From assembly GCF_000426685.1 (NCBI RefSeq), contig NZ_AUFV01000002.1, positions 372,001 to 436,000 of the forward strand: a stretch of DNA of 64,000 nucleotides. Reading direction: 5' to 3'. This document shows, piece by piece, positions 13,584 through 28,831 of this stretch. Below the pieces are notes generated by a model. The model was given only the letters and a program-made list of their open reading frames with translations. It did not search any database and was not told where the DNA came from. This DNA is from Solimonas flava DSM 18980. GTDB taxonomy: Bacteria > Pseudomonadota > Gammaproteobacteria > Nevskiales > Nevskiaceae. Numbering within the stretch: position 1 is the stretch's first letter; each line of letters opens with the position of its first letter. A program made the position numbers and the translations under genes.

Positions 13584-13658
<75 letters not shown>

Positions 13659-13861: not shown

Positions 13862-13877
13862 TGGCATGTGGCTTGCG
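13862..13877 (+). promoter_or_regulatory. Sigma54 -24/-12 promoter of the porin gene
   Basis: TGGCATGTGGCTTGCG has the invariant GG and GC of the sigma54 consensus at exact spacing. It is 97 bases before the porin ATG. Confidence 0.72.
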
Positions 13878-13958
13878 CCTGCGGCTTCCGACCTCGCGCC
13901 GGCTTCCCCGCCGGCAGCGCGGCGACATCCGTCAAACATGAGGAGAGCAGGGGGTTTT

Positions 13959-15176
13959 ATGAGCAAGACCATTCATCTGTCGTGGGTCCTCGGCGCCGGT
14001 GCGGTGCTGGCGTCGGCGCAGGCTGCGGCCGTCGAGCTGAAATCCGGCGACTGGACTTTCACCGTCAACGGCAACGTCAACGTCCATTACATCCATTCGT
14101 CGTGCGAGCGCCATCCGGCGCCGATCGTCACCGTCGGCGGCGCCTGCACGCCGGACTCCGGCGGCGAGGACAACACCTCGTCGATCAGCAACGGCCTGCT
14201 GCCGGCGTCGATCAAGTTCGGCGTGACCACCACGCAGCTCGGCTACGACATCGGCGTGCACTTCGGCTTCTATCCGGGCGTCAGCACCAACGACGGCGGC
14301 AGTCCGAATCTCGGCGGGACCAACACCGCGCTCGGCACCACTGGCCTGGACGTGCGCCAGGTGTTCATGACGTTCGGCAACGCCGACATGGGCACCTTCC
14401 TATTCGGTCGCAACTTCGGTCTGTTCCAGTTCGACGCGATCATCAACGACATGACGCTGCCCGGCGTCGGCGCCGGCAACGGCAACTACGCATCGCCGTC
14501 GAATACTTCGCTCGGTTCGATCGGCTTCGGTTACATCTACACCGACACGCTGGCGCAGATGAACTACACGACGCCGAGCTTCTACGGCGCGACGCTGACG
14601 CTGGGCATCTTCGATCCGGTCGAGCCGCTGCTGCAGGGCACGGCGACGGCCGAGAGCACGCCCGGCTTTCACGGCAAGCTGGCGTGGACCTACGGCGACT
14701 ACTACCTGTCGACCAGCTTCCTGAGCCAGAAACAGCAGCTGCCGAACGACGCCGGCGACTACAACAGCTTCGGCGTCGACGTCACCGGCAAGGCCAAGTT
14801 CGGCCCGGTCGAACTGCTGGCCAGCTATTACGACGCCAGCGGCGTCGGCACCACCGGCCTGTTCGTGCTCGGCGACGACGGCAACGGCCACAAGCGCGAT
14901 TCCGACGGCTACTTCGTGCAGGCCACCTGGACGATCGCCCAGACCAAGATCGGCGCGAACTACGGCGTCTCCAAGCTCGATTACGCCAACGCCGCCGATG
15001 CCGCCGCGGTGCCGAACCTGGTCGAGAAGAACAGCAAGTACACGCTCGGCGTCTATCACGCGCTGACGCCGAACCTGACGCTGCTCGGCGAGTTCAGCGA
15101 CGTGAAGACCGAGGCCCACGACGGCGCCGAGAACCAGAGCAGCAACTTCAACGTCGGCGCCTATCTGTCGTTCTAG
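13959..15176 (+). CDS. Outer-membrane porin-like protein
   Basis: A 405-residue exported protein with a signal peptide ending near the AQAAA site (residues 19-25). The mature part alternates polar and aromatic residues as in beta-barrels, carries the porin-type segment VRQVFMTFGNADMGTFLFGR, and ends in Phe after a typical last strand (FNVGAYLSF). I chose the ATG at 13959 because it begins a clean signal peptide. It has its own sigma54-type promoter and lies between the two-component genes and the alcohol dehydrogenase. A role in letting the alcohol substrate across the outer membrane is inferred from position. Confidence 0.82.
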   Translation: MSKTIHLSWVLGAGAVLASAQAAAVELKSGDWTFTVNGNVNVHYIHSSCERHPAPIVTVGGACTPDSGGEDNTSSISNGLLPASIKFGVTTTQLGYDIGVHFGFYPGVSTNDGGSPNLGGTNTALGTTGLDVRQVFMTFGNADMGTFLFGRNFGLFQFDAIINDMTLPGVGAGNGNYASPSNTSLGSIGFGYIYTDTLAQMNYTTPSFYGATLTLGIFDPVEPLLQGTATAESTPGFHGKLAWTYGDYYLSTSFLSQKQQLPNDAGDYNSFGVDVTGKAKFGPVELLASYYDASGVGTTGLFVLGDDGNGHKRDSDGYFVQATWTIAQTKIGANYGVSKLDYANAADAAAVPNLVEKNSKYTLGVYHALTPNLTLLGEFSDVKTEAHDGAENQSSNFNVGAYLSF

Positions 15177-15414: not shown

Positions 15415-17202
15415 ATGAAAGACGAACATCGTCGGGGGAACCCGCAGGGCGCCGGTGCGTGGCGCCGGTTCGGCCGTTTCGCGGCACTGGCCGCGCTGAT
15501 CGGCAGCGGCGCCGCGACGGCCGCCGTCACCGACAAGATGATCGCCGACGACGCGACGACGACGGATGACGTCGTCACCGTCGGCATGGGCCAGGGCGGC
15601 CAGCGCTACAGCCCGCTGACGCGGATCAACACGGCCAACGTCGGTGATCTGGTGCCGGCCTGGACGTTCTCGTTCGGCGACGAGAAGCAGCGCGGCCAGG
15701 AGACGCAGCCGCTGGTCTACAACGGCAAGATCTTCGTCACCGGTTCGTACTCGCGCATCTGGGCCCTCGACGCGCGCACCGGCAAGCGCCTGTGGGCCTA
15801 CGAGCAGCGTCTGCCGGACGGCATCATGCCGTGCTGCGACGTCGTCAACCGCGGTGCCGCGCTGTACGACGATCTGGTGATCTTCGCGACGCTCGACGCC
15901 AAGCTGGTCGCGCTCAGGCAGGACACCGGCAAGGTAGCGTGGAGCGAGACGCTCGGCGACTACAAGGCCGGCTACTCGAACACCGCCGCGCCGCTGATCG
16001 TCGACGGCAAGGTCATCACCGGCGTGTCGGGCGGCGAGTTCGGCATCGTCGGCCGCGTCGACGCGCGCGACGCCAGGACCGGCAAGCTGGTCTGGACGCG
16101 TCCGACCGTCGAGGGTCACATGGGCTATCTCAACGGCAAGGAGAACGGCATCACCGGCAAGCTCAACGCGAGCTGGCCGGGCGATATGTGGAAGTACGGC
16201 GGCGCCGCGACCTGGCTCGGCTGCACCTACGGCGGCGACACCAAGCTGATCTACTGCGGGACCGGCAATCCGGCGCCGTGGAATTCGCATCTGCGTCCCG
16301 GCGACAACCTGTATTCGAGCTCGACGCTGGCGATCAACGCCGACACCGGCAAGATCGTCTGGAGCTACCAGTCGACGCCGAACGACGGCTGGGATTTCGA
16401 CGGCGTCAACGAGTTCATTCCGTTCGACTTCAAGAAGGACGGCAAGACCGTGAAGGCCGGCGCCAAGGCCGACCGCAACGGCTTCTTCTACGTGCTCGAC
16501 CGCAGCAACGGCAAGTTCATCAGCGCGTCGCCGTTCGTCACCAGGCAGACCTGGACCCAGGGCATCGATCCGAAGACCGCGCGGCCGATCGAGGCCGACA
16601 CGCGTCCCGGCGATCCGGCGCAGGCCGAGCGTGGCAAGCAGGTGTTCTCGGCGCCGTCGTTCCTCGGCGGCAAGAACTGGATGCCGATGGCCTACAACGC
16701 CAACACGGGCCTGTTCTACGTGCCGGCCAACGAGTGGGGCATGGACATCTGGAACGAGCCGATCACCTACAAGAAAGGCGCGGCCTATCTCGGTGCCGGC
16801 TTCACGATCCATCCGCTCTACGAGGACTACATCGGCGCGCTGCGCGCGATGGATCCGGCCACCGGCAAGATCGTCTGGGAATACAAGAACCCGGCGCCGC
16901 TGTGGGGTGGCGTGATGACGACCGCCGGCAATCTGGTCTTCACCGGCACGCCGGAAGGCTACTTCAAGGCGTTCGACGCCCGGACCGGCAAGGAGCTGTG
17001 GCAGTTCCAGACCGGCTCCGGCGTCGTCGGCCAGCCGATCACCTGGGAGCAGGACGGCGAGCAGTACGTCGCCGTGGCCTCGGGCTGGGGCGGCGCCGTG
17101 CCGCTGTGGGGCGGCGAGGTCGCCAAGAAGATCAAGGACATCAGCCAGGGCGGCATGCTCTGGGTGTTCAAGCTGCACCGCACGCAGCTCGCCGCGCAGT
17201 AA
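15415..17202 (+). CDS. PQQ-dependent alcohol dehydrogenase, lanthanide-type signature
   Basis: A 595-residue periplasmic quinoprotein of the ExaA/PedH/XoxF family, oxidising alcohols and passing electrons to a cytochrome c. A signal peptide spans about residues 1-37. The eight-bladed propeller W-motifs are evident (for example [11 protein letters not shown] and [11 protein letters not shown]). The vicinal disulfide is Cys140-Cys141 (MPCCDV). Metal ligands by family alignment are Glu208 (GGEFG), Asn285 ([10 protein letters not shown]) and catalytic Asp327. Asp329, two residues on (WDFDGVNE), is the added ligand typical of lanthanide-dependent enzymes; the calcium enzyme ExaA has Ser at this place. 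GAGGAG precedes the ATG. There is no fused cytochrome domain. Confidence 0.96.
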
Positions 17203-17288: not shown

Positions 17289-17726
17289 ATGCGTTTCCCC
17301 ATTCTGAAAACCGCCATCGTCGTCCTGCCGTCGGCTGCCGTGCTCGCCGCCGGCGCCGCACTCGCGCACGGCAACGTCACGCCGCAGGGCGTCAACACCG
17401 ACGGCCTGCCGGCCCTGCAGGGGCCGCTGACCGAGAATCCGTACCGACAGGACAAGAAGGTCTACGCCAAGGCGATCGAGATCGGCTCCTCGGCCTACAA
17501 CCAGAACTGCGCGCGCTGCCACGGCCTCGAAGCCGTTTCCGGCGGTATCGCGCCGGACCTGCGCAACCTGCCGGCCGGTAGCGACGGCGACGAGTATTTC
17601 CAGATGCGCGTGCGGCACGGCTCGGTGCGCAACGGCGTGACCTACATGCCGCCGTTCGAAGCGACCTTCAATGAGCCGGCGATTTGGGCCATCCGCAGCT
17701 ACCTGGACTCGGTCCATGTCGACTGA
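17289..17726 (+). CDS. pedF: Cytochrome c-550, PedF-type
   Basis: A 145-residue periplasmic monohaem cytochrome with a signal peptide (cleavage after AALA, about residue 26), the haem motif CARCH (74-78) and an axial Met in the segment VTYMPPF (Met120). It is the usual electron acceptor of quinoprotein alcohol dehydrogenases of this type and directly follows the dehydrogenase gene. The gene overlaps the next gene by 11 bases, so it belongs to the downstream operon. Confidence 0.92.
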   Translation: MRFPILKTAIVVLPSAAVLAAGAALAHGNVTPQGVNTDGLPALQGPLTENPYRQDKKVYAKAIEIGSSAYNQNCARCHGLEAVSGGIAPDLRNLPAGSDGDEYFQMRVRHGSVRNGVTYMPPFEATFNEPAIWAIRSYLDSVHVD

Positions 17727-18591
17727 ACGCCGGTACCGTGGATTCGGCGCGCTGCTGACGGCGCTGCTGCTGATGTTCGCCGCGCCGGCGATGGCCGGCG
17801 ACCGGCTCGACGAGATTCGCGAGCGCGGCGAGCTGTCGGTCGCGGTCTATCGCGACTTTCCGCCGTACTCGTACGCCGAGGGCGGCCGCTATGTCGGCGT
17901 CGACGTCGATCTGGCGCAGGCGCTGTCCGAGCGGCTCGGCGTGCGCCTGTCGCTGCGGCCGTTCTACGCCGACGAGAACAGCGACGACGACCTGCGCAAT
18001 CAGGTCTGGAAAGGGCATTACCTCGGCGGCGGCGTCGCCGACCTGATGCTGCACGTCGGCCTCGACCCCGAGTACGTCAAGCGCAACGACAAGGCGGAAC
18101 TGTTCAACGTCTACCAGCGCGAGACCGTCGGCGTGATCTATCGGCCGGGGCGTTTCGCGCGCTTCGACTCGCCGCTGGCGCTCGCCGGGCACAAGGTCGC
18201 GGTCGAGGTCGACTCGATCAGCGATTACTACCTGAGCGGCGCATTCAACGGCCGTCTGCGCGACAGCGCGGTGCGCAAGCTGAACGTCGGCGAGGCGATC
18301 GACGCCTGGATCAAGGGCGAGGTCGACGCGGTGATGGCGCCGCGCGGCCAGCTCGAGGGCGCGCTGTTCCGCACCGGCGCCGAGGCGCCGCGCTTCGAGA
18401 TCAGCGAGTTCACCGGGCTGTTCCGGACGTCCTGGGACGTCGGTATGGCGATCAAGGCCGGCAACCCGCAGCTCAAGGCCGCGCTCGTCGACGCGCTCGC
18501 CGCGCTGCGCCGCGACGGCCGATTGCAGACGATCTACGCCGCTTACGGCCTGACGCAGGCGGACGCGCCGCTCGCGCTCGCCGGGCACTGA
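17716..18591 (+). CDS. Quinoprotein-associated periplasmic binding protein, family 3
   Basis: A 291-residue exported protein of the amino-acid-type solute-binding family 3, matching the subgroup found beside quinoprotein dehydrogenases. It has a signal peptide (about residues 1-27) and the fold motifs LSVAVYRDFPPYSY, VGVDVDLAQALSERLGV and a C-terminal LRRDGRLQTIYAAYG. No ABC permease or ATPase genes are nearby, so it probably does not feed an importer and may instead assist the dehydrogenase or its cofactor in the periplasm. I chose the ATG at 17716, which begins a proper signal peptide. Confidence 0.88.
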   Translation: MSTERRYRGFGALLTALLLMFAAPAMAGDRLDEIRERGELSVAVYRDFPPYSYAEGGRYVGVDVDLAQALSERLGVRLSLRPFYADENSDDDLRNQVWKGHYLGGGVADLMLHVGLDPEYVKRNDKAELFNVYQRETVGVIYRPGRFARFDSPLALAGHKVAVEVDSISDYYLSGAFNGRLRDSAVRKLNVGEAIDAWIKGEVDAVMAPRGQLEGALFRTGAEAPRFEISEFTGLFRTSWDVGMAIKAGNPQLKAALVDALAALRRDGRLQTIYAAYGLTQADAPLALAGH

Positions 18592-18602
18592 GGCTTTTGC
18601 GC

Positions 18603-19355
18603 ATGCGATGCCGGGCCTGGCTGCTCGCCGCCGCATGGGTCGCGCCGGCGCTCGCCGCGCCGCCCGACGATCCGCTGCGTTCGCCGGCCTGGCCGTACAT
18701 GGCGGAGCGCTACTTCGCCGGGCAGACGGTGCGCTTCGATGCGGCGGTGCGGGTGCTGATGGCGGGCGCGGCCGAGGACCCGCTGGCGGTGCCGGTGCAC
18801 GTCGATGCCGACGCGCTCGCCGACGTGCGCGAGATCCTCGTGTTCGCCGACCTCAATCCGATCACGACCATCCTGCGTTACGAGCCGAGCGAGCTGGCGC
18901 GGCCGGCGATCGGCTTTCGCTTCAAGGTCCAGCAGGCGACGCCGCTGCGGGCCGCGGTCCGCACCGGCGACGGCGTCTGGCACCTCGGCGGCGCCTGGCT
19001 CGACGCTTCCGGTGGCGGCTGCACAACGCCGAGTCAGGCCAGCGGCAGCGGTCTGTGGAAGGATCGCTTCGGCGAGATCGACGCGCGCCTGTGGCCGCGC
19101 GCCGATGGCTGGCGCCGCCTGCGTCTGCAGCTGATCCATCCGATGGACACCGGTCTGGCCGGCGGCATTCCGGCGTTCTATCTGGAAACGCTCGATCTGC
19201 GGGACGCCGACGGCCGCACGCTCGCGCATCTGCAGACCTTCGAGCCGGTGGCCGAGAACCCGCTGCTGAGTTTCGATCTGGGCGGCCGCGGCGTGGTCTC
19301 GATCCGCGGCCGCGACACCCAGGCCAACCGCTTCGCCGGCACGGTGGCGCCATGA
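18603..19355 (+). CDS. Quinoprotein-associated SoxYZ-like carrier protein
   Basis: A 250-residue exported protein. The N-terminal half resembles SoxY with a single Cys in a Gly-rich stretch (SGGGC, Cys140), which in SoxY is the swinging arm that carries sulfur. The C-terminal half resembles SoxZ (IPAFYLETLDLRD). This fused carrier is a recognised companion of PQQ dehydrogenases and of the zinc hydrolase that follows. Unlike SoxY, the Cys is internal rather than at the C-terminus. The ATG at 18603 is preferred over a TTG two codons upstream. The stop codon overlaps the next start (ATGA). Confidence 0.87.
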   Translation: MRCRAWLLAAAWVAPALAAPPDDPLRSPAWPYMAERYFAGQTVRFDAAVRVLMAGAAEDPLAVPVHVDADALADVREILVFADLNPITTILRYEPSELARPAIGFRFKVQQATPLRAAVRTGDGVWHLGGAWLDASGGGCTTPSQASGSGLWKDRFGEIDARLWPRADGWRRLRLQLIHPMDTGLAGGIPAFYLETLDLRDADGRTLAHLQTFEPVAENPLLSFDLGGRGVVSIRGRDTQANRFAGTVAP

Positions 19356-20308
19356 GGTGTCTGCCGGGTTCCAGCGCGCTGCTGGCGCTGCTGGCGTTGC
19401 TCGCCGTCGGCGCGGCGCCTGCGCAATACGACTACCGCCTCGCGCCGCAGGCGCTCGGCAACGGCGCCTACGTTTTCGTCGGCGCGCTCGAACATTTCAC
19501 ACGTGCCAACGGCGGCAACATCGTCAACACCGGCTACATCGATACGCCGGCCGGCGCCATCGTCATCGACAGCGGACCGTCGCGCCTGTACGGCGAGCAG
19601 CAGCGCGCGCTGATCGAGCGGCGCAGCGGCCGGCCGGTCGCGCGCGTCTACATCACGCACGCGCATCCCGATCATTTCTTCGGCGATCAGGCTTATGCCG
19701 GCGTTCCGGTCTATGCGCTGCCGGCGACGCGCGAGGCGATTGCTGCCAACGGCGATGCGCTGGCCGACAATCTGTACCGCCTCGTCGGCGACGCGATGCG
19801 CGGCACGCAGGCGGTCGCGCCGGGTCTGCCGGCCGGTGCCGGACGCGTCGAGGTCGGCGGTCGCGCGCTGCAGCTGATCGCGCTGGCCGGGCACACCGAC
19901 GCCGATCTCGCGGTGTTCGACGAGCGCAGCGCCACGCTCTACGCCGGCGATCTGGTCTTCCACCGGCGCACGCCGAGCACGCCGAACGCCGATCTTGCGC
20001 GCTGGCTGGCCGCGCTCGACAGGCTCGAAATGATTCCGTACAAGACGCTGGTGCCCGGCCACGGACCGGTGCTGCAGGGCCCGGAGGCGATTCGCGAGAC
20101 GCGCGACTACCTGCACTGGCTCGACGCAATGCTGCGCGAGGCGGCTGCGCGCGGCGTCGACCTGCCCGAACTCGCCGAGCTGCCGGTGCCGGCGCGCTTC
20201 GGCGATTTCGCGGTGCTGCGCGCCGAGCTGTCGCGCTCGGCGGCACATCTGTACCCGGCGCTGGAGACGCAGGCCTTGCGGCGTCTGGCGCCGGACGTGC
20301 GCGAGTAG
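19352..20308 (+). CDS. Quinoprotein relay zinc metallohydrolase
   Basis: A 318-residue metallo-beta-lactamase-fold hydrolase exported by a signal peptide (residues 1 to about 24). Zinc ligands are visible in THAHPDHFFGD (His103, His105, Asp107, His108), LAGHTDAD, LYAGDLVF and PGHGPV. It is translationally coupled to the SoxYZ-like carrier, and this pairing is characteristic of quinoprotein gene sets. The substrate is unknown; by analogy with SoxB-like steps it may cleave a group from the carrier Cys. Confidence 0.9.
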   Translation: MRCLPGSSALLALLALLAVGAAPAQYDYRLAPQALGNGAYVFVGALEHFTRANGGNIVNTGYIDTPAGAIVIDSGPSRLYGEQQRALIERRSGRPVARVYITHAHPDHFFGDQAYAGVPVYALPATREAIAANGDALADNLYRLVGDAMRGTQAVAPGLPAGAGRVEVGGRALQLIALAGHTDADLAVFDERSATLYAGDLVFHRRTPSTPNADLARWLAALDRLEMIPYKTLVPGHGPVLQGPEAIRETRDYLHWLDAMLREAAARGVDLPELAELPVPARFGDFAVLRAELSRSAAHLYPALETQALRRLAPDVRE

Positions 20309-20361
20309 AAAACGACAACATCGCCGGCCGCGCTGCGCCGGTGTCACAAGGAGGGGAAACG

Positions 20362-20760
20362 ATGCAATGGCTGGGACTGTGGGGCGCTTACGCGCCCGTC
20401 TACCTCAAGGTGCTGGTGATCGGCACGACGCTGGCGTTCGCGCTGCCGATCTTCCTGGTGCCGCTGCACTGGGCGCGCGCCATGCAGTGGCGCATCCCGG
20501 AGCATACCGATCTGGCCGTCTACTTCGGGCGCTGCCTCGGCGCCTTCATCCTGATCTTCGAATGGCTGGCCTGGCGCGCCGCGCACGGCCACGACATCGA
20601 GGTCGTGTTCCGCATGCTGCTGGCGATCACCGGTTCGATGGTGCTGGTGCACATCTACGGCGCGCTGCGCCGCATCCAGCCGTGGACCGAGACGCTGGAG
20701 ATCGGCTTCTACGCCGGGCTGTTCGCGCTCAGCGTGCTGTTCTATCCGCTGGCGACCTGA
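20362..20760 (+). CDS. Small four-helix membrane protein of the quinoprotein cluster
   Basis: A 132-residue protein with four predicted membrane helices (about 13-35, 55-72, 81-100 and 111-130) and a conserved-looking loop with His residues (WRAAHGHDIE). AAGGAGGGG gives an excellent ribosome binding site before the ATG. I do not recognise the family. Its place directly after the zinc hydrolase suggests a membrane partner of the relay genes, perhaps an electron-transfer or anchoring subunit; this is inference only. Confidence 0.75.
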   Translation: MQWLGLWGAYAPVYLKVLVIGTTLAFALPIFLVPLHWARAMQWRIPEHTDLAVYFGRCLGAFILIFEWLAWRAAHGHDIEVVFRMLLAITGSMVLVHIYGALRRIQPWTETLEIGFYAGLFALSVLFYPLAT

Positions 20761-20998
20761 TCCGGCATCGCCGGCGTCGGGCGGCCGTCGCGGCGCTGTC
20801 CGCTGCCGGCGACGGCAGCCGCAACGAACCCGGCTACGGCGCCTGTGTCGACCGTCCGGGGCGCCGCAGTCGCGATCGTCGAGGACTGCAGGCGCCGCCG
20901 GAGCGACGTCTGCTCGATGATCGGGCCGGCCCGGCTGGCGGCGGACGTTGCCTGCACCGGTATCGCCCGGGCCTGGGCGGCACGCGCCGGGCGTGCTT

Positions 20999-22258
20999 TC
21001 AGCCGAAGCTGTCGCGCAACAGCTGTGCCTGCCAGCCCTCGGCGTGGCGCGCCTCGAGTTCGCGCAGCGCCGGGTCGGCGTGCGCCGGGCTCAGTCCTGA
21101 CGACAGCTCGTTGAGACGGCCGCCGACGGCGCGATAGCTGCCGGAGATCGACAGCGCGTAATCCGGAGCGAGCAGGCTGTAACAGGTATTGAGCAGCAGC
21201 GCCGCCGGCGGCGTTTCGCCGGCGAGCCGGTGCGCGATCGCCAGCGCGCAGGCCTTGCCCTGATTGTTGGCGGCGAACGCCGACTTCGGCATCGGCGCGG
21301 CGATGCAGGCGTCGCCGAGCACGTGGATGCCGGGATGGCGCGTCGACTCGAACCCGAGCGGCTCCACCGGACACCAGCCCGACGCGTCGGCGAGATCGGC
21401 GTCGCGCGCGAACGCGGCGGCGCGCTGCGGCGGGATCAGGCTGAGCAGCGCGGCGTGCACCGTCTCGCCACCGGCCAGGTGCACGCGGCGTGCCGCGACG
21501 TCGACGGCGACGACGGCGCCGCCCTGCGCGCGCGGCCACCACTCGATCATGCCTGGATACAGCGCGTTCCAGCTCGCCATGAAGGCGGCGCGCTTGGAGA
21601 AGTCGTCCTTGGCGTCGGCGATGACGATGCGGCGGCGCAGGCCGCGTCGCTGCGCGTGCCAGGCGAACAGGCTGGCGCGCTCGTAGGGGCCGGGCGGGCA
21701 GCGGTACGGATTCGGCGGCGCGGCGATCAGCACGGTCGCGCCGTCGGGCAGCGCGTCGAGCTGCGCGCGCAGCCGCGCGAACTGGCCGTCGATCCGCCAC
21801 GCGTGCGGCACGGCATCGCTGTTCGCGGCGCTGAGTCCGTCGATGGCCTCGTAGACGAAGTCGATGCCGGGGGCGACGACGATGCGCTCGGCGCGCAGGC
21901 GCCGGCCATCGGCGAGGCGCAGCTCGCGCGCGACCGGATCGAGCGCGACCGCCGCTTGCGCGAACCAGCGGATGCCGTGGCGGCGCAGGCCGTCGCCGGG
22001 CCGCGCGCGGATGCGCTCGGGGCCGATCAGGCCGGCGAGCGCGGCGTTGGAGAACGGCCCGGTCAGGAACGTGCCGCGCGGCTCGACGACGGCGAGTTCC
22101 AGCGCCGGCGCGATGCGGCGCAGCGCCAGCGCGCAGCTGGCGCCGGCGAAACCGCCGCCGACGATCACGACGCGCGCCGAGGCTGCACGCACGGCGGCCG
22201 GCAGCGCCACCGTCGCCAGCGCCGCGAAGCCGCCGAGCAGCTGGCGCCGGGTCGTCAC
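20999..22258 (-). CDS. fccB: Flavocytochrome c sulfide dehydrogenase-like flavoprotein
   Basis: A 419-residue FAD protein of the FccB family. A twin-arginine signal (TTRRQLLGG) directs folded export. The FAD-binding VVIVGGGFAGASC follows at about 30. The family's redox-active cysteines are present as Cys187 (PYRCPPGPYER) and Cys359 (NTCYSLL), and the C-terminal FCSD domain is complete. The GTG start at 22258 overlaps the stop codon of the cytochrome gene (GTGA), so the two subunits are coupled. FccB oxidises sulfide in sulfur bacteria; next to a SoxYZ-like carrier and a PQQ dehydrogenase it may instead accept electrons from a thiol carrier. Confidence 0.9.
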   Translation of the reverse strand: MTTRRQLLGGFAALATVALPAAVRAASARVVIVGGGFAGASCALALRRIAPALELAVVEPRGTFLTGPFSNAALAGLIGPERIRARPGDGLRRHGIRWFAQAAVALDPVARELRLADGRRLRAERIVVAPGIDFVYEAIDGLSAANSDAVPHAWRIDGQFARLRAQLDALPDGATVLIAAPPNPYRCPPGPYERASLFAWHAQRRGLRRRIVIADAKDDFSKRAAFMASWNALYPGMIEWWPRAQGGAVVAVDVAARRVHLAGGETVHAALLSLIPPQRAAAFARDADLADASGWCPVEPLGFESTRHPGIHVLGDACIAAPMPKSAFAANNQGKACALAIAHRLAGETPPAALLLNTCYSLLAPDYALSISGSYRAVGGRLNELSSGLSPAHADPALRELEARHAEGWQAQLLRDSFG

Positions 22259-22566
22259 GGCGCGCCGCCGCGCTCGCAGGCGATCGCGGCGGCGAGCGCC
22301 TGCAGGGTCTGATCGTCGAGGCCGGCGAGCAGGCGCGGCATCACCGTGCCGGTGTACGGCGCGTCGCGCAGGCGTGCGAGCCGCGCGTACAAGGCCGGGG
22401 CCGGAGCGCGCGGCAGTGCCGGCAGTGCGTCCGGCGCCGCGCCATGGCAGCTGCCGCAGCCGAGGCTCAGCTCGGGGTTCGGGCAGGCGCCGGACGCGGC
22501 CGCCGCCGGCAGCGGCGCCAGCGCACAGCTTCCGAACAGCAGGGCGGCAGGCAGACGCAACAGCAT
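22255..22566 (-). CDS. fccA: Small cytochrome c, flavocytochrome c haem subunit
   Basis: A 103-residue monohaem cytochrome c with a signal peptide (about 1-25), the haem motif CGSCH (37-41) and a likely axial Met in YTGTVMPRLL. It resembles the haem subunit of flavocytochrome c and is coupled to the flavoprotein gene by a 4-base overlap. It would take electrons from FccB and pass them to the respiratory chain. A 20-bp inverted repeat similar to the sigma54 enhancer repeats lies upstream. Confidence 0.87.
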   Translation of the reverse strand: MLLRLPAALLFGSCALAPLPAAAASGACPNPELSLGCGSCHGAAPDALPALPRAPAPALYARLARLRDAPYTGTVMPRLLAGLDDQTLQALAAAIACERGGAP

Positions 22567-22805: not shown

Positions 22806-23258
22806 ATGTCGGATATCGCGGCTCTGCTGAAGAGCGAAATCACCCGCCTGTCGAAGAAGGTCGTGCGCCAGCAGGCGGCGTCGCTGCAGAAGGCCAGCAC
22901 GGCGCACCGGCGGCAGCTCGCGGCGCTGAAGAAGCAGGTCGGCGACCTTCAGAAGGAAGTGACGCGGCTGCGCCGCGCTGCGGCGAACGCTGTGCCGGAC
23001 GTCGAGGCCGACGCGCCGGGGCGCAAGCTGCGCTTCGTCGCCAAGGGGCTGAAGCCGCTGCGCACGCGCCTGGGCGTCAGCGCCCGCGAGTTCGGGCTGC
23101 TGATCGGCGTCAGCGAGCAGGCGGTCTACAACTGGGAAACGCGCCGGGCGACGCCGCGCGCCGCCCAGCTCGAGAAGATCGCCGAACTGCGCGGCGTCGG
23201 CAAGAAGGAAGTGCGCGCGCGGCTCGCCGCGCTGGAAGGCGAAGCGGCCGAGGCTTGA
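22806..23258 (+). CDS. Coiled-coil protein with C-terminal XRE-like helix-turn-helix
   Basis: A 150-residue basic protein. Residues about 10-65 form a Lys/Arg-rich coiled coil (SLQKASTAHRRQLAALKKQV). Residues about 85-125 form an XRE-like helix-turn-helix (SAREFGLLIGVSEQAVYNWE). The order, with dimerisation helix first and DNA-binding domain last, is unusual for XRE regulators and could suit a nucleoid-associated or local regulator. No function is recognised. It stands alone, facing the convergent czc operon. Confidence 0.75.
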   Translation: MSDIAALLKSEITRLSKKVVRQQAASLQKASTAHRRQLAALKKQVGDLQKEVTRLRRAAANAVPDVEADAPGRKLRFVAKGLKPLRTRLGVSAREFGLLIGVSEQAVYNWETRRATPRAAQLEKIAELRGVGKKEVRARLAALEGEAAEA

Positions 23259-23394: not shown

Positions 23395-26300
23395 TCAGTC
23401 CGTATCGCGGCGGTGCGCGGCCTGATACAGCGCCGGCAGCACCAGCAGGCTCAGGATCGTCGCCGAGATGATGCCGCCGATGACGACCGTCGCCAGCGGC
23501 CGCTGCACTTCGGCGCCAGTGCCGGTGTTGAGCGCCATCGGCAGGAAGCCCAGCGACGCCACCAGCGCCACCATCAGGATCGGCCGCAGCCGTGACAGCG
23601 CGCCTTCGGTGATCGCTTCGTTGAGCGGCCGGCTCTGCGACAGCAGGTTGCGGAACATCGCGACCATCACCACGCCGGTCAGCACGGCGACGCCGGACAG
23701 CGTGATGAAGCCGACGCCGGCCGAGATCGACAGCGGAATGTCGCGCAGCCAGAGGGCGATGATGCCGCCGGTCAGCGCCAGCGGCACGCCCGAAAACACC
23801 AGCAGCGCGTCCTTGACCGACGAGAACGTCAGGTACAGCAGGCCGAAGATCATCAGCAGCGAGATCGGCACGACGATCATCAGGCGGTTGGCCGCCGAAG
23901 ACAGCTGCTCGAACGTGCCGCCCCAGCTCACGTAGTAGCCGGTCGGCAGCTTGATGCCGGATTCGACCGCGGTGCGCGCTTCGGTGACGAAGCCGCCGAG
24001 ATCGCGGCCGCGCACGTTGGCGGTGACGACGACGCGGCGCTTGCCGTTCTCGCGCGAGATCTGGTTCGGGCCGAGCGTGCGCTCGATTTTCGCGACCTCG
24101 GACAGCGGCACGTAGCCGCCGCCCGGCAGCGGCACCGGCAGGCGCGCGAGCGCCGCCGGATCGGTGCGCGCCGCCTCGGGCAGGCGCACCACGACCGCGA
24201 AGCGCGCGTCGCCCTCGAAGATCGTGCCGGCGCCGCTGCCGCCGACGGCGGTGGCGACCAGATCCTGCACGTCGGCGACGCGTACTCCGTAGCGCGCCAG
24301 CTGCGCGCGGTCCGGCAGTACCGCCAGCATCGGCAGGCCGCTGGCCTGCTCGACTTTGACGTCGGCGGCGCCGGCGATGCCGCCGATGCGCGCGGCGATG
24401 CGGTTGGCGAGCCGCTGCAGGGTGTCGAGATCGTCGCCGAACACCTTGATCGCGACGTCCGAGCGCACGCCCGAGATCAGCTCGTTGAAGCGCATCTGGA
24501 TCGGCTGCGTGAAGCTGTACGCCGCGCCGGGCACCGCGTTGACGGCGGCGGCCAGTTCGTCGATCAGCTGCGCTTTCGGCTTGTCCGGGTTCGGCCATTC
24601 CTCGTGCGGCTTGAGCATCACGAAGGTGTCGGTCTCGCCCGGCGACATCGGGTCGGTCGCCGCCTCGTTGGTGCCGGTGCGCGCGAACACCAGGCGCACT
24701 TCCGGCACCTCGAGCAGCGCGGTGTTGACGAGCTTCTGCGTCGCCACCGCCTGCTCGATGCCGATGCCCGGGATGCGGGTCGGCTGGATGACGACGTCAC
24801 CCTCGTCGAGGTTGGGGATGAACTCGGCGCCGAGCCGCGTCACCAGCCAGCCACAGGCCAGCGTCAGCGCCACGGCGCCGCCGAGCACCAGCGGACGGTG
24901 CGTCAGCGCCCAGTTCAGCATCGGCGCATAGACGCGCTTGGCGCCGCGCACCAGCACGTTGTCCTTCTCCGAGATCGGGCCGGTCAGCAGGATCGCGACC
25001 AGCGCCGGCACCAGCGTCACCGACAGCAGCAGCGCGGCGAGCAGGGCGATGATCACGGTCAGCGCCATCGGATGGAACATCTTGCCCTCGACGCCGGTGA
25101 GGGCGAGGATCGGCAGGTTCACCAGCACCACGACCAGCACGCTGACCAGACTGGGGCGGAACACCTCGCCGGTCGCCTCGTGCACGACGGCGAGCCGGTG
25201 GCGCAGCGGCAGCACGCCGCCGCGCTCGTGCTGCGCGTGTCCGAGCCGCATCAGGCAGTTCTCGACGATGATCACCGAACCGTCGACGATCAGGCCGAAG
25301 TCGAGCGCGCCGAGGCTCATCAGGTTGGCGCTGATGTCGCCGCTGACCATGCCGGTGAAGGTCATCAGCAGCGACAGCGGGATCACCAGCGCAGTCAGCA
25401 GCGCGGCGCGCAGATTGCCGAGCATCACGAACAGCACCACGACGACCAGCACCGCACCTTCGATGAGGTTCTTCTGCACGGTGGCGACGGTCTTGCCGAC
25501 CAGCACGGTGCGGTCGTAGACGGTGACCGCCTCGACGCCTTCGGGCAGGCGGCCGCGGATCTCGTCGAGTTTGGCGGCAACGCGACGGGCGACGATGCGG
25601 CTGTTCTCGCCGATCAGCATGAACGCCGTCGACAGGACCGTCTCCTCGGTGCCGAGCTGCGCGGCGCCGGTGCGCAGCGGACCGCCGAGGCTGACCTCGG
25701 CGACGTCGGCGACCGTGACCGGCACGCCGTTGCGCGTGGCGACGACGACGCGGCGCAGGTCATCGAGCCCGCGTAGCTCGCCGGGCACGCGCACCAGCAG
25801 CTGTTCGCCGTAGCGCTCGATGTAGCCGGCGCCGCGGCTGCCGTTCGACGCGATCAGCGCCATGCGCAGATCGTCGAGGCTCAGCTGCTGGGCCAGCAGC
25901 CGCGCCGGATCGGGCAGCACGTGGAACTCCTTGACGCGGCCGCCGATGGTGTCGACTTCGGTGATGCCGGAGGTCTGCCGCAGCTGCGGCCGCACGATCC
26001 AGTCCTGGATCGTGCGCAGCGCGGTGGCGTCATACGGCGTGCCGTCCGACTGGCGCGCGTCGGGCTTGGCGCGCAGCGCGTACATGAAGATCTCGCCGAG
26101 ACCGGTCGCGATCGGGCCGAGCGAGACTTCGGCGTCGGCCGGCAGGCTGGAGCGGACGTCGATCAGGCGCTCGTTGACGAGCTGGCGGGCCAGATAGATG
26201 TTGGTGCCGTCCTCGAACACCGCGGTGATCGTCGCCAGGCCGTACTTGGAGATCGAGCGCGTCTGTTTGAGGCCGGGCATGCCGCCGAGCGCGGTTTCGA

Positions 26301-26505
26301 TCGGGAAGGTGACGCGGCGTTCCGTTTCGAGCGGCGAATAGCCGGGCGCACGCGCCGCGACCATCACCTGCACATTGGTGATGTCCGGTACCGCGTCGAC
26401 CGGCAGGCGCTGGTACGAGAACACGCCGATCGCCGCCAGCAGCAGGGCCAGCAGCACCATCATCCATCGCCGCGTGACGGCGAGGTGGAGCAGGGAGTCG
26501 ATCAT
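23395..26505 (-). CDS. czcA: CzcA-family heavy-metal RND efflux pump
   Basis: A 1036-residue inner-membrane proton antiporter of the HME-RND family. It has the N-terminal helix, two large periplasmic loops (about 35-335 and 560-860) and twelve membrane helices. The signature DFGLIVDGSVIIVEN in helix 4 carries the charged residues that drive proton-coupled divalent cation export (the Co/Zn/Cd type rather than the Cu/Ag type, by resemblance). It forms a tripartite pump with the periplasmic and outer-membrane components encoded just upstream. Only 4 bases separate it from czcB. Confidence 0.95.
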   Translation of the reverse strand: MIDSLLHLAVTRRWMMVLLALLLAAIGVFSYQRLPVDAVPDITNVQVMVAARAPGYSPLETERRVTFPIETALGGMPGLKQTRSISKYGLATITAVFEDGTNIYLARQLVNERLIDVRSSLPADAEVSLGPIATGLGEIFMYALRAKPDARQSDGTPYDATALRTIQDWIVRPQLRQTSGITEVDTIGGRVKEFHVLPDPARLLAQQLSLDDLRMALIASNGSRGAGYIERYGEQLLVRVPGELRGLDDLRRVVVATRNGVPVTVADVAEVSLGGPLRTGAAQLGTEETVLSTAFMLIGENSRIVARRVAAKLDEIRGRLPEGVEAVTVYDRTVLVGKTVATVQKNLIEGAVLVVVVLFVMLGNLRAALLTALVIPLSLLMTFTGMVSGDISANLMSLGALDFGLIVDGSVIIVENCLMRLGHAQHERGGVLPLRHRLAVVHEATGEVFRPSLVSVLVVVLVNLPILALTGVEGKMFHPMALTVIIALLAALLLSVTLVPALVAILLTGPISEKDNVLVRGAKRVYAPMLNWALTHRPLVLGGAVALTLACGWLVTRLGAEFIPNLDEGDVVIQPTRIPGIGIEQAVATQKLVNTALLEVPEVRLVFARTGTNEAATDPMSPGETDTFVMLKPHEEWPNPDKPKAQLIDELAAAVNAVPGAAYSFTQPIQMRFNELISGVRSDVAIKVFGDDLDTLQRLANRIAARIGGIAGAADVKVEQASGLPMLAVLPDRAQLARYGVRVADVQDLVATAVGGSGAGTIFEGDARFAVVVRLPEAARTDPAALARLPVPLPGGGYVPLSEVAKIERTLGPNQISRENGKRRVVVTANVRGRDLGGFVTEARTAVESGIKLPTGYYVSWGGTFEQLSSAANRLMIVVPISLLMIFGLLYLTFSSVKDALLVFSGVPLALTGGIIALWLRDIPLSISAGVGFITLSGVAVLTGVVMVAMFRNLLSQSRPLNEAITEGALSRLRPILMVALVASLGFLPMALNTGTGAEVQRPLATVVIGGIISATILSLLVLPALYQAAHRRDTD

Positions 26506-26509
26506 GGGT

Positions 26510-27421
26510 TCACTCCTCGCTCTTGGCCTGCCACTGCGACTTCAGCAAGAAGCTGTTGCCGACCACGACGCGCTCGCCGGCGGCGAGGCCCTCGCGCACT
26601 TCCGCGTAATGGCGGTCCTGCGCGCCGAGCACGACGGCGCGCGCGACGAAACCGCCGTCGCGCTCGACGAACACGCTGCTGCGACCCTCCAGCTCCTGCA
26701 GCGCCGATTGCGGCACGGCGAGCGCGACGGCGTGCTCGGCGGTGATCAGCTCGGCGCTGACGAACTGGCCCGGGCGCCAGCGGCCGTCGGCGTTGTCGAG
26801 CGTCGCGCGCACGCGCACGCTGCGGCGCTGCGGATCGCTCTCCGGCGCCACGTAGTCGACGCGGGCGCGCGTCGCCTCGCTGCCGCGCTCGGCGTAGAGA
26901 TCGACGGGCTGGCCGACGCTGACGCGCCCGGCGTCGTGCGGGAACACCGCCAGCTCGGCCCAGACCTTCGACAGGTCGCCGATCAGGAACAGCGTCTGGT
27001 CGCCGAGCGACTCGCCGTCGTTGACCTGGCGGTCGAGGATGCGGCCGCCGATCGGCGCGGTGATGCGATAGGGCTCGAGGCTGTCGTTCGATTCGACCAC
27101 CAGCAGGGTCTCTCCGGCGGCGACGCGGTCGCCGATGTTCTTGGTGACCTTGCGGGCGATGCCGGGGTAGCGCGCGGCGACGCGGCGGATGTGGTCGGCG
27201 GCCGGCGCGATCTCGCCGTAGACGCTCAGCACGTCGGCGATCGTCTGCGGGCCGGCCGGCGCGACTTCGACGCCGGCCTCGCGGCGGTGCGCCTCGTCGA
27301 GCTGGATGACCAGTTCGGTCGCGGCCGCCGGCGTGGCGATCGCGGCCGGCGGGGCGTCGCCGCCGCAGGCGCTGAGCAGGGCGGCGAGCGCGATGCTGGT
27401 GAGAGCAAGAGTGTGGTTCAT
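26510..27421 (-). CDS. czcB: CzcB-family periplasmic adaptor
   Basis: A 303-residue membrane-fusion protein. It begins with a lipoprotein-type signal (LAALLSACG), so it is probably anchored by Cys19 to the inner membrane. A short hairpin and barrel-sandwich domain follow (YPGIARKVTKNIGDRVAAGE and APIGGRILDRQVNDGESLG), then beta-barrel and membrane-proximal domains. It links CzcA to the outer-membrane channel. The start codon overlaps the stop codon of czcC (ATGA). Confidence 0.93.
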   Translation of the reverse strand: MNHTLALTSIALAALLSACGGDAPPAAIATPAAATELVIQLDEAHRREAGVEVAPAGPQTIADVLSVYGEIAPAADHIRRVAARYPGIARKVTKNIGDRVAAGETLLVVESNDSLEPYRITAPIGGRILDRQVNDGESLGDQTLFLIGDLSKVWAELAVFPHDAGRVSVGQPVDLYAERGSEATRARVDYVAPESDPQRRSVRVRATLDNADGRWRPGQFVSAELITAEHAVALAVPQSALQELEGRSSVFVERDGGFVARAVVLGAQDRHYAEVREGLAAGERVVVGNSFLLKSQWQAKSEE

Positions 27422-28713
27422 GGCGAGGGAGTTCCGTTCGGGGCGGCGGCCAGCGCGGTCATGCGCTCGACGGCGGCCAGCATGCGGTGGTAATCGGCGG
27501 CGTTGGTCAGCAGTTCGCGTTCGAGGTCGAGGCGCGTCTTCTGCGCGTCGAGCAGGTCGATCTGCGAATAGCGGCCATTGGCGTAGCCACGGCGCGTCAG
27601 CGTCAGTGCTTCTTCGGCCTGCGGCACCAGCACATCGCGCAGCGATTCGACCATGGTGCGCGCGTGGCGCAGTTCCTGGACGAAGTCGTACAGCGTCGTT
27701 TCGCTCTTGACCGCCGCGGCGCGGCGTTCGGCGCCGACGCGGTCGCGCAGCGCCGCGGCTTCGGCGATCGCGCCCTGGTTGCGGTTGCCGATCGGCAACG
27801 GCAGCAGCATCGAGGCGATCAGCGCGTAGTCGCCGGTCGACTGCAGACGGCGCACGCCGGCGCTGAACAGCGGGTCGCCGTTGACCTGCGACTGCGCGTA
27901 GCTCAGCTCGGCATTGCGCAGGCGCTGCTCGACGTCGTAGCGCGCGAAATCCGGGCTGCGCCGCAGGCGCTCGACCAGCACGCTGTAGTCGTCCGTCGCC
28001 GGCAGCATGCGCAGCTCGGCGCGGGCATGGTCGAACTGCGGCTCGGATTCACCCCACTGCGCGCCGAGCATGCGGCGCTGCGTCGACAGCAGATGCTCGT
28101 AGTGCTCGTACTCCAGCTGGGCGCGTTCGAGCGCGATGCGCGCGCGGTTGACTTCGAGGCTCGACGCCGCGCCGGCGCGCACGCGGCGCTCGGCCGCGGC
28201 CAGCGTCAACTTGGCGTTGTCGATGCTGCGCTGGGCGAGATCGAGCTGCTCCTGCGACTCGACCACATCGATGAAGCGGCGCGTGGTCTCGGCCAGCACG
28301 TCGAGTCGCGCCAGCTCGGTGTCAGCGTCGACCTGTTCGATCTGCGCGCTGGCGACGCCGATGCGCGCTTCGCGCTTGCCTGCGCTCTGCCAGACCTTGG
28401 CCAGGCGCAGCGTCGCCTCGATCGATTCGGCGTTGCGGTAAGGGCCGCTGCCGGCGAAGTTCTCGAGATCGACGCCGACTTCGGTGCGCGGGCTGAGCCC
28501 GGCCTGCACGCGGCGGCCGTCGGCGGCGGCGCGGTCGTAGGCGTAGCGGGCCAGATCCGGATGCGCGCGCAAGGCGAGCGTCGCGGCCTGATCGAGGCGC
28601 AGTTCGCCGAGCGGATGCGGCACTTCGGCCACGGGGGGCGCGGCGGCGGCCGCGCAGGACAGCGCCAGCAGCAGGCCGAGGCCTGCGGCGGGACGCCAGC
28701 GTTTGGGCAACAT
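27418..28713 (-). CDS. czcC: CzcC-family outer-membrane channel
   Basis: A 431-residue TolC-type outer-membrane efflux protein with a signal peptide (cleaved near AAAAAPP) and two repeats of the OEP coiled-coil fold (LTLAAAERRVRAGAASSLEV and LTLTRRGYANGRYSQIDLLD). It completes the CzcCBA tripartite metal exporter. I chose the ATG at 28713, after GGAG, because it starts the signal peptide. The open frame upstream is not protein-like. Confidence 0.93.
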   Translation of the reverse strand: MLPKRWRPAAGLGLLLALSCAAAAAPPVAEVPHPLGELRLDQAATLALRAHPDLARYAYDRAAADGRRVQAGLSPRTEVGVDLENFAGSGPYRNAESIEATLRLAKVWQSAGKREARIGVASAQIEQVDADTELARLDVLAETTRRFIDVVESQEQLDLAQRSIDNAKLTLAAAERRVRAGAASSLEVNRARIALERAQLEYEHYEHLLSTQRRMLGAQWGESEPQFDHARAELRMLPATDDYSVLVERLRRSPDFARYDVEQRLRNAELSYAQSQVNGDPLFSAGVRRLQSTGDYALIASMLLPLPIGNRNQGAIAEAAALRDRVGAERRAAAVKSETTLYDFVQELRHARTMVESLRDVLVPQAEEALTLTRRGYANGRYSQIDLLDAQKTRLDLERELLTNAADYHRMLAAVERMTALAAAPNGTPSP

Positions 28714-28831
28714 GTGTAGCTCCCGAAACTGATGAATACGACGGCATCGCCCATGCCGGACGGCATGCGGGCGATATTGGGGCAGGCCGCAGCCGCACGC
28801 CTTGACGGGCGTCAGCCGCAGCAATCGGGAA

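Follow-up and report, generated by a model that had tools for sequence, protein, structure and literature searches.

In a 64,000-nucleotide stretch of the genome of Solimonas flava DSM 18980 (contig NZ_AUFV01000002.1, positions 372,001 to 436,000; hereafter the window), we identified a ped-type alcohol-oxidation operon, consisting of a pyrroloquinoline quinone (PQQ)-dependent dehydrogenase, PedF, PedG, a fused SoxYZ-like carrier and a SoxH-like hydrolase, next to which genes for a flavocytochrome c, FccAB, are located. Within the order to which this organism belongs, FccAB is an addition to the ped-type operon and is inherited with the carrier. The occurrence of carrier and hydrolase beside a PQQ dehydrogenase is not new, because this pair is already in print for ped clusters (in part of PMC12997753), for Hyphomicrobium (in part of PMC11582611) and for lucinid symbionts (in part of PMC11237559). 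The first of these sources, a 2026 review, offers no more than guesses, in the portion cited here, at the roles of the two proteins beside PQQ dehydrogenases. The element that appears to be new is the link of the flavocytochrome to the carrier: no description of FccAB with a quinoprotein carrier cluster was found in the open-licence PubMed Central literature.

Joint occurrence of carrier and flavocytochrome

Distribution of both components was assessed in 61 relatives sampled from the same genus, family and order. FccB orthologs were collected by phmmer with the window protein, and the threshold was placed where the scores drop from 202 bits (first half of the FccB of genome G355) to 104 bits (G299); orthologs showed 42-100% identity, and the next group started from 33% identity and 104 bits. 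A weaker flavoprotein match of some kind was present in 54 of the 61 genomes. An FccB ortholog and a fused carrier over cut-off were both present in the same 19 genomes and both missing from the other 42 (Fisher's exact test, p = 3e-16). Six genera were mixed, and each of them was concordant (4/11, 1/3, 1/2, 1/3, 1/2 and 6/11; exact within-genus p = 2e-7). A first-pass annotation of this DNA, made from the sequence alone, had proposed a periplasmic relay, unlike classical Sox, of carrier, hydrolase, a small membrane protein and FccAB, and had reckoned with the possibility that these families are confined to this locus; carrier and FccB do co-occur beyond it, in 19/19 genomes of the order.

The nearest distance between FccB and the carrier was 0.8-22 kb in 17 of the 19 genomes, and in G333 the two were located on different short contigs. 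FccB was codirectional with the operon in three loci. Gene order in L100, which is the same in L072, was dehydrogenase, FccA, FccB, PedF, carrier and hydrolase, and in L073 FccA, FccB, dehydrogenase, PedF, PedG, carrier and hydrolase followed one another on one strand. A PedH-type dehydrogenase (at least 55% identity) was found in 18 genomes, 17 of which contained both carrier and FccB. The remaining genome, G327, had neither: it kept an 80% identical dehydrogenase, PedF and PedG (L317:7278-10376), no carrier and no FccB ortholog were detected in the genome, and no SoxH was detected in the 15.6 kb at L317 (SoxH was not searched genome-wide). G327 is a natural loss of carrier and FccB. G339 and G355 lacked a PedH-type dehydrogenase but had adjoining genes for carrier, SoxH and FccB. 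From these two patterns, FccB therefore tracks the carrier slightly better than it tracks the dehydrogenase, a difference that rests on three genomes.

Additional genes were observed next to fccAB in several relatives (L083:5131-7701; L092, L096, L097, L098 and L074), where up to four unnamed genes followed. They belong to clusters c11, c10, c7 and c20, which were present in 6, 7, 9 and 4 of 24 gene sets, respectively. The first of these genes resembles MotA/TolQ/ExbB (22.1 bits, Pfam cut-off 22.9) and the others have no family; together they possibly encode a proton-driven envelope device. The window has none of these genes between hydrolase and fccB. Pairings of another kind were seen in Pollutimonas (L110:9998-12474) and Halomonas (L112:9935-12417), in which a classical Cys-type FccB has a divergent fused SoxYZ as its neighbor (52 and 38 bits, respectively) and no PQQ dehydrogenase accompanies them.

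Genes of the locus and their conserved residues

Profile matches and reading frames confirmed, at their positions, all gene parts named in the first-pass annotation. The genes are as follows (bits, with the family cut-off where one applies).

13866-15176, plus strand: porin
15415-17202, plus strand: PQQ-dependent alcohol dehydrogenase, predicted PedH-like (TIGR03075, 783 bits, cut-off 480)
17289-17726, plus strand: cytochrome c-550 PedF (TIGR04494, 184.4 bits, cut-off 122)
17716-18591, plus strand: PedG-like periplasmic solute-binding protein (PF00497, 53.9 bits), overlapping the end of pedF
18603-19355, plus strand: fused SoxYZ-like carrier (TIGR04557, 192.6 bits, cut-off 140)
19352-20308, plus strand: SoxH-like zinc metallohydrolase (TIGR04558, 384 bits, cut-off 300)
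20362-20760, plus strand: small four-helix membrane protein, without family
20999-22258, minus strand: FccB-like flavoprotein (PF21706, 125.1 bits; PF09242, 63.1 bits)
22255-22566, minus strand: FccA-like monoheme c-type cytochrome with one CxxCH (CGSCH)

The PedG-like gene (17716-18591) lies inside the interval of the first-pass annotation, whose title does not name it, and its position matches that in ped clusters, as given in part of PMC12997753. The fccA and fccB genes are convergent to the plus-strand operon.

The carrier contains Pfam domains SoxY (residues 37-140) and SoxZ (residues 167-247) in one frame, and in its N-terminal part it matches the SoxY chains in solved structures of SoxYZ. 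Its arm, GGGCTTPS, is internal, with Cys140 numbered from the ATG at 18603; translation could alternatively begin at a TTG at 18597. The arm Cys was conserved in 18/18 homologs from the order (alignment A2, 18 sequences) and in 30/30 sequences when the window protein was considered together with 29 carriers from other orders. In this wider set, the arm reads GGC, then Ser, Thr or Ala, then usually Ala-Pro or Val-Pro. In the structural model (mean predicted local distance difference test score, pLDDT, 86.6), residues 141-146 directly after Cys140 had pLDDT under 50 and are predicted to be flexible, consistent with a swinging arm that has become a linker.

The ATG of the hydrolase at 19352 overlaps the stop codon of the carrier. 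All seven SoxH-like metal ligands (H103, H105, D107, H108, H181, D200 and H237), a complete binuclear set, were present in the window protein and in 20/21 homologs, and a SoxH-like gene was detected in the 3.7 kb surrounding the carrier in 26/30 loci. In a 299-genome sample of the phylum, 50 genomes were over the TIGR04557 cut-off. Eleven of these (G034, G010, G093, G109, G089, G065, G045, G061, G073, G101 and G077) were excluded because of read-through stops or two joined genes, which left 39 fused-carrier genomes. A PQQ dehydrogenase over cut-off was present in 39/39 of them, compared with 44/260 other genomes (Fisher's exact test, p = 6e-26).

Both Pfam domains of flavocytochrome c sulfide dehydrogenase (FCSD), the central domain and the flavin adenine dinucleotide (FAD)-binding domain, were over cut-off in FccB, whose profile matched the solved enzymes 1fcd, 3vrd and 5n1t with 456.9, 456.0 and 527.8 bits, respectively. 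Cys187 and Cys359 align with conserved cysteines of these enzymes, which we take to be the redox disulfide pair, and both were kept in 17/17 FccB sequences of the order (alignment A1, with 17 of 19 sequences; the split gene of G355 and a near-copy of G351 were left out). The position of Gly67, aligned to 1fcd and 5n1t, is presumably that of the Cys to which FAD is covalently attached. Gly was present here in 17/17 sequences of the order and Cys in 73/80 others among the matches listed (Asn in 3, Pro in 2 and a gap in 2), so the window FccB does not have this Cys of FCSDs. A further Cys, Cys42 in window numbering, was found in 17/17 sequences of the order compared with 8/80 others, again among the matches listed. 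In a tree with 78 FccB proteins of named genomes (among the matches listed), the 17 sequences formed one side of a branch with a Shimodaira-Hasegawa-like approximate likelihood ratio support of 96; this was a quick tree with no bootstrap, in which some rows, the window's among them, were of odd composition and from which two fragments were dropped, L169 and L180 being left out. A monoheme CxxCH frame was located directly upstream of FccB in 18/19 loci.

The best solved relatives of the dehydrogenase are quinoprotein ethanol dehydrogenases 6zcv (865 bits) and 6zcw (858 bits). Its WDFD motif at residues 326-329 places Asp329 two residues past the catalytic Asp327, and we take this extra Asp to be the lanthanide-type signature. 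By this residue, the window enzyme is predicted to be of lanthanide type and PedH-like, and the adjoining PedF equivalog identifies the genes as a ped cluster. Dehydrogenases with the lanthanide-type Asp were present in 38/39 carrier genomes compared with 21/40 sampled carrier-less dehydrogenase genomes (p = 3e-6) and, counted by single enzyme, made up 31/38 of those within 20 kb of a carrier compared with 57/98 others; 136 of 150 listed matches were fetched for these counts, the 14 left out include all from four carrier-less genomes, and the list is a lower bound with at most four candidates scored per genome. A strict link to lanthanide-type enzymes was weakened by L072 and L100, where carrier and FccB adjoin a Ser-type dehydrogenase; the dehydrogenase beside the carrier in L086 is also Ser-type, and G054 has a carrier and only Ser- and Thr-type dehydrogenases. 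The lanthanide-type residue is thus common with the carrier but not strict. The vicinal Cys140-Cys141 pair (MPCC) was found in 36/38 dehydrogenases within 20 kb of a carrier compared with 94/98 others, and it is no marker of carrier-linked enzymes.

A second, divergent PQQ-dehydrogenase-like protein with Gly replacing the catalytic Asp was observed in five loci (L088:7331, L090:5459, L092:7785, L084:11009 and L079:6536), and in four of these it adjoins the hydrolase. Another locus, L093:687-15586, is XoxJ-type and contains SoxYZ, SoxH type 2, S-formylglutathione hydrolase, S-(hydroxymethyl)glutathione dehydrogenase and synthase, and the large subunit of RuBisCO.

The small four-helix protein had no NCBIfam or Pfam match. 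It is a predicted helical bundle (mean pLDDT 90.4), and its model had no PDB fold match at E <= 0.001. Clear copies were present in 9/61 relatives, 4 of which had the carrier (Fisher's exact test, p = 0.44), and among the loci read the protein adjoins the hydrolase only in G000, G305 and G308. Given that it is uncorrelated with the carrier over the 61 genomes, it was rejected as a relay member, and it is probably a neighbor outside the module. The relay of the first-pass annotation thus loses its membrane protein and keeps co-occurrence in the order and its distinction from classical Sox.

Upstream of the operon, genes for pqqB, pqqC, pqqD, pqqE, an aldehyde dehydrogenase and a two-component pair were found. 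A perfect 7-base tandem repeat (CCCGCAT x 10.7) occupies 13584-13658, between the histidine kinase and the porin. On the other side, an HTH_3 regulator (22806-23258) is divergent from fccA, and a CzcA-type heavy-metal resistance-nodulation-division pump (TIGR00914, 1456 bits) with adaptor and outer-membrane-like genes extends over 23395-28824.

Possible functions of the carrier-flavocytochrome module

We tentatively suggest, with a probability of about 0.42, that carrier, hydrolase and FccAB may form a thiol/sulfane redox module that is dedicated to the carrier and would maintain turnover of its arm. Its substrate, direction and benefit are what we infer, starting from gene content, co-inheritance and conserved active residues that were observed directly. 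The arm Cys would take up a periplasmic thiol-reactive species that, left free, would attack PQQ or the dehydrogenase; sulfane sulfur, sulfide and a thiol adduct are the likeliest candidates. Much as SoxF does next to SoxYZ in some Sox systems, FccAB would then draw electrons from the thiol or sulfane and pass them through the Cys187-Cys359 disulfide to FAD, the FccA heme and c-type cytochromes. SoxH would hydrolyze what remains on the arm, freeing the Cys. Such a module would shield or tune the quinoprotein and would not be a sulfur-respiring pathway. This sulfur reading gains from the chemistry of the FccAB family and from published neighbors of the carrier/hydrolase pair, namely rhodanese (in part of PMC12997753) and YeeE-like PmpAB (in part of PMC11582611).

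Several observations weigh against such a module. In the phylum sample, FccB (PF09242) was over cut-off in 70/299 genomes and in 17/39 fused-carrier genomes, and it was located within 25 kb of the carrier in only 1/39, the window's own. A PQQ dehydrogenase over 100 bits was found at 0/80 FccB loci from named genomes (4-21 kb each, among the matches listed, from which near relatives were possibly left out). Since no such linkage was seen in other orders, FccAB is at most a lineage-specific addition and cannot belong to the carrier system in general. The co-occurrence predicted by the first-pass annotation holds within the order, but linkage of carrier and FccAB has so far not been seen beyond it. 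Inside the order, the carrier beside FccB was below cut-off in G339 and G355 (85.9 and 112.3 bits), with the over-cut-off copy elsewhere; FccB of G355 was split into two frames, and carrier and FccB of G307 were 1.2 Mb apart. Linked inheritance of one island could mimic functional coupling. In addition, loss of the presumed covalent FAD Cys may point to changed or lost sulfide chemistry, and carrier neighbors in L093 and L074 are formaldehyde genes, which better fit aldehyde chemistry on the arm.

In that aldehyde relay, which we consider doubtful, the aldehyde produced by the dehydrogenase would bind the carrier Cys as a hemithioacetal, be oxidized there to a thioester by the quinoprotein or FccAB, and leave as an acid through the glyoxalase-II-like SoxH, a protein-based counterpart, in the periplasm, of the glutathione formaldehyde pathway. 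It is consistent with the PQQ alcohol dehydrogenase in every fused-carrier genome and with the conserved metal ligands of SoxH, which is weakly similar to hydroxyacylglutathione hydrolase (TIGR03413, 29 bits, cut-off 200.8). The carrier and SoxH type 2 of L093 are located among glutathione-formaldehyde genes, and L074 has S-(hydroxymethyl)glutathione synthase, although formaldehyde genes may merely reflect methanol use. To our knowledge, the established chemistry of flavocytochrome c enzymes involves sulfide and thiols and does not extend to aldehydes. A role in carbon metabolism has been argued from gene context (in part of PMC11237559); however, Pseudomonas-type dehydrogenases themselves oxidize aldehydes, according to part of PMC12997753, and rhodanese and YeeE-like neighbors in other clusters indicate sulfur. 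It appears distinctly improbable that FccAB of this clade has ceased to be a sulfide dehydrogenase and is itself the dehydrogenase of a carbon adduct on the carrier Cys (aldehyde hemithioacetal to thioester), with SoxH hydrolyzing the product in a self-contained periplasmic protein-thiol pathway for the aldehyde from the quinoprotein; if true, the loss of the covalent FAD link and the presence of the clade-specific Cys42 would mark that switch.

FccAB could also be an ordinary sulfide dehydrogenase that happens to lie nearby and is co-inherited from one mobile or ancestral island without shared chemistry. Its two redox cysteines are kept, its genes are convergent and not operonic in the window, and no linkage was seen beyond the order. 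However, concordance outlasts rearrangement, from convergent genes and codirectional genes in the operon to distances of 8-22 kb, separate contigs and 1.2 Mb; the clade carries its own signature in Gly67 and Cys42; and FccB is independent of SoxB, which was over cut-off in 2/19 FccB genomes compared with 7/42 others (p = 0.71; part of a SoxB gene is present in G333 as well, where a contig ends). We regard this explanation as rather improbable. One proposal in PMC12997753, in the part cited here, concerns the vicinal disulfide of the dehydrogenase, which carrier, hydrolase and FccAB would make or guard. Gene proximity and the thiol-active nature of these proteins agree with such a maturation tool, but it is weakened because the CC pair is near-universal with or without a nearby carrier, and the fused carrier was missing from 44/83 dehydrogenase genomes; this role seems highly improbable. 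With a third protein, whose fold and redox class are known, gained or lost together with the carrier in one order, the question of what the carrier does narrows to one that can be measured: whether electrons pass from the carrier arm to FccAB. The answer would also bear on what SoxF and SoxH do in sulfur bacteria.

Relation to known systems

Classical Sox thiosulfate oxidation was rejected for the window genome, which had no SoxB over cut-off (best match 18.5 bits, cut-off 550) and no second SoxY (SoxAX and SoxCD were not searched). A separate SoxY with a C-terminal GGCGG arm was not detected (TIGR04488, 31.5 bits, cut-off 125), the only SoxY match in the genome being the carrier gene. SoxB over cut-off was absent from 17/19 FccB genomes, including the window's, and the system is therefore not classical Sox, in agreement with the first-pass annotation. 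Like the Paracoccus-type Sox system with SoxEF and SoxH, the window contains Y, Z, F, E and H homologs side by side, if FccAB is likened to SoxEF, as we assume. In keeping with the sulfur reading, a SoxF flavoprotein of Chlorobaculum tepidum is reported to stimulate the oxidation of thiosulfate in vitro (a study cited in PMC5336275). The genome of Methylophaga thiooxydans contains both fccAB and SoxYZ fusions, but the locus numbers of fccA and fccB are far from those of the fusions (in part of PMC6548844).

The ped cluster of Pseudomonas putida (pedE-pedF-pedG-PP_2677-PP_2678-pedH) contains the same families in the same order as the window (dehydrogenase, PedF, PedG, SoxYZ-like and SoxH-like), whereas its gene table, within the cited part of PMC12997753, does not include FccAB. 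No FccB domain match was found in five carrier genomes, G054, G062, G127, G139 and G167, for which the label Pseudomonas-type is a guess. A term search of the text of a lanthanide transposon paper (PMC7391723) gave no mention of Sox genes. The SoxYZ-S2 and SoxYZ-S4 fusions of lucinid symbionts have, as in the window, soxH and quinoprotein neighbors (PQQ dehydrogenase, xoxF), but unlike the window no flavocytochrome is named for these loci in the cited part of PMC11237559. With regard to the NCBIfam families for quinoprotein relays, TIGR04557 (SoxYZ-like carrier) and TIGR04558 (zinc metallohydrolase 1), the window carrier and hydrolase both belong, each over its curated cut-off, and FccAB is outside. 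With the solved FCSDs (1fcd, 3vrd and 5n1t), the window protein shares whole-length homology, both redox cysteines and a c-type cytochrome partner gene; its clade differs from them in Gly at the position of the FAD Cys, the extra Cys42, a single-heme FccA and linkage to a quinoprotein operon.

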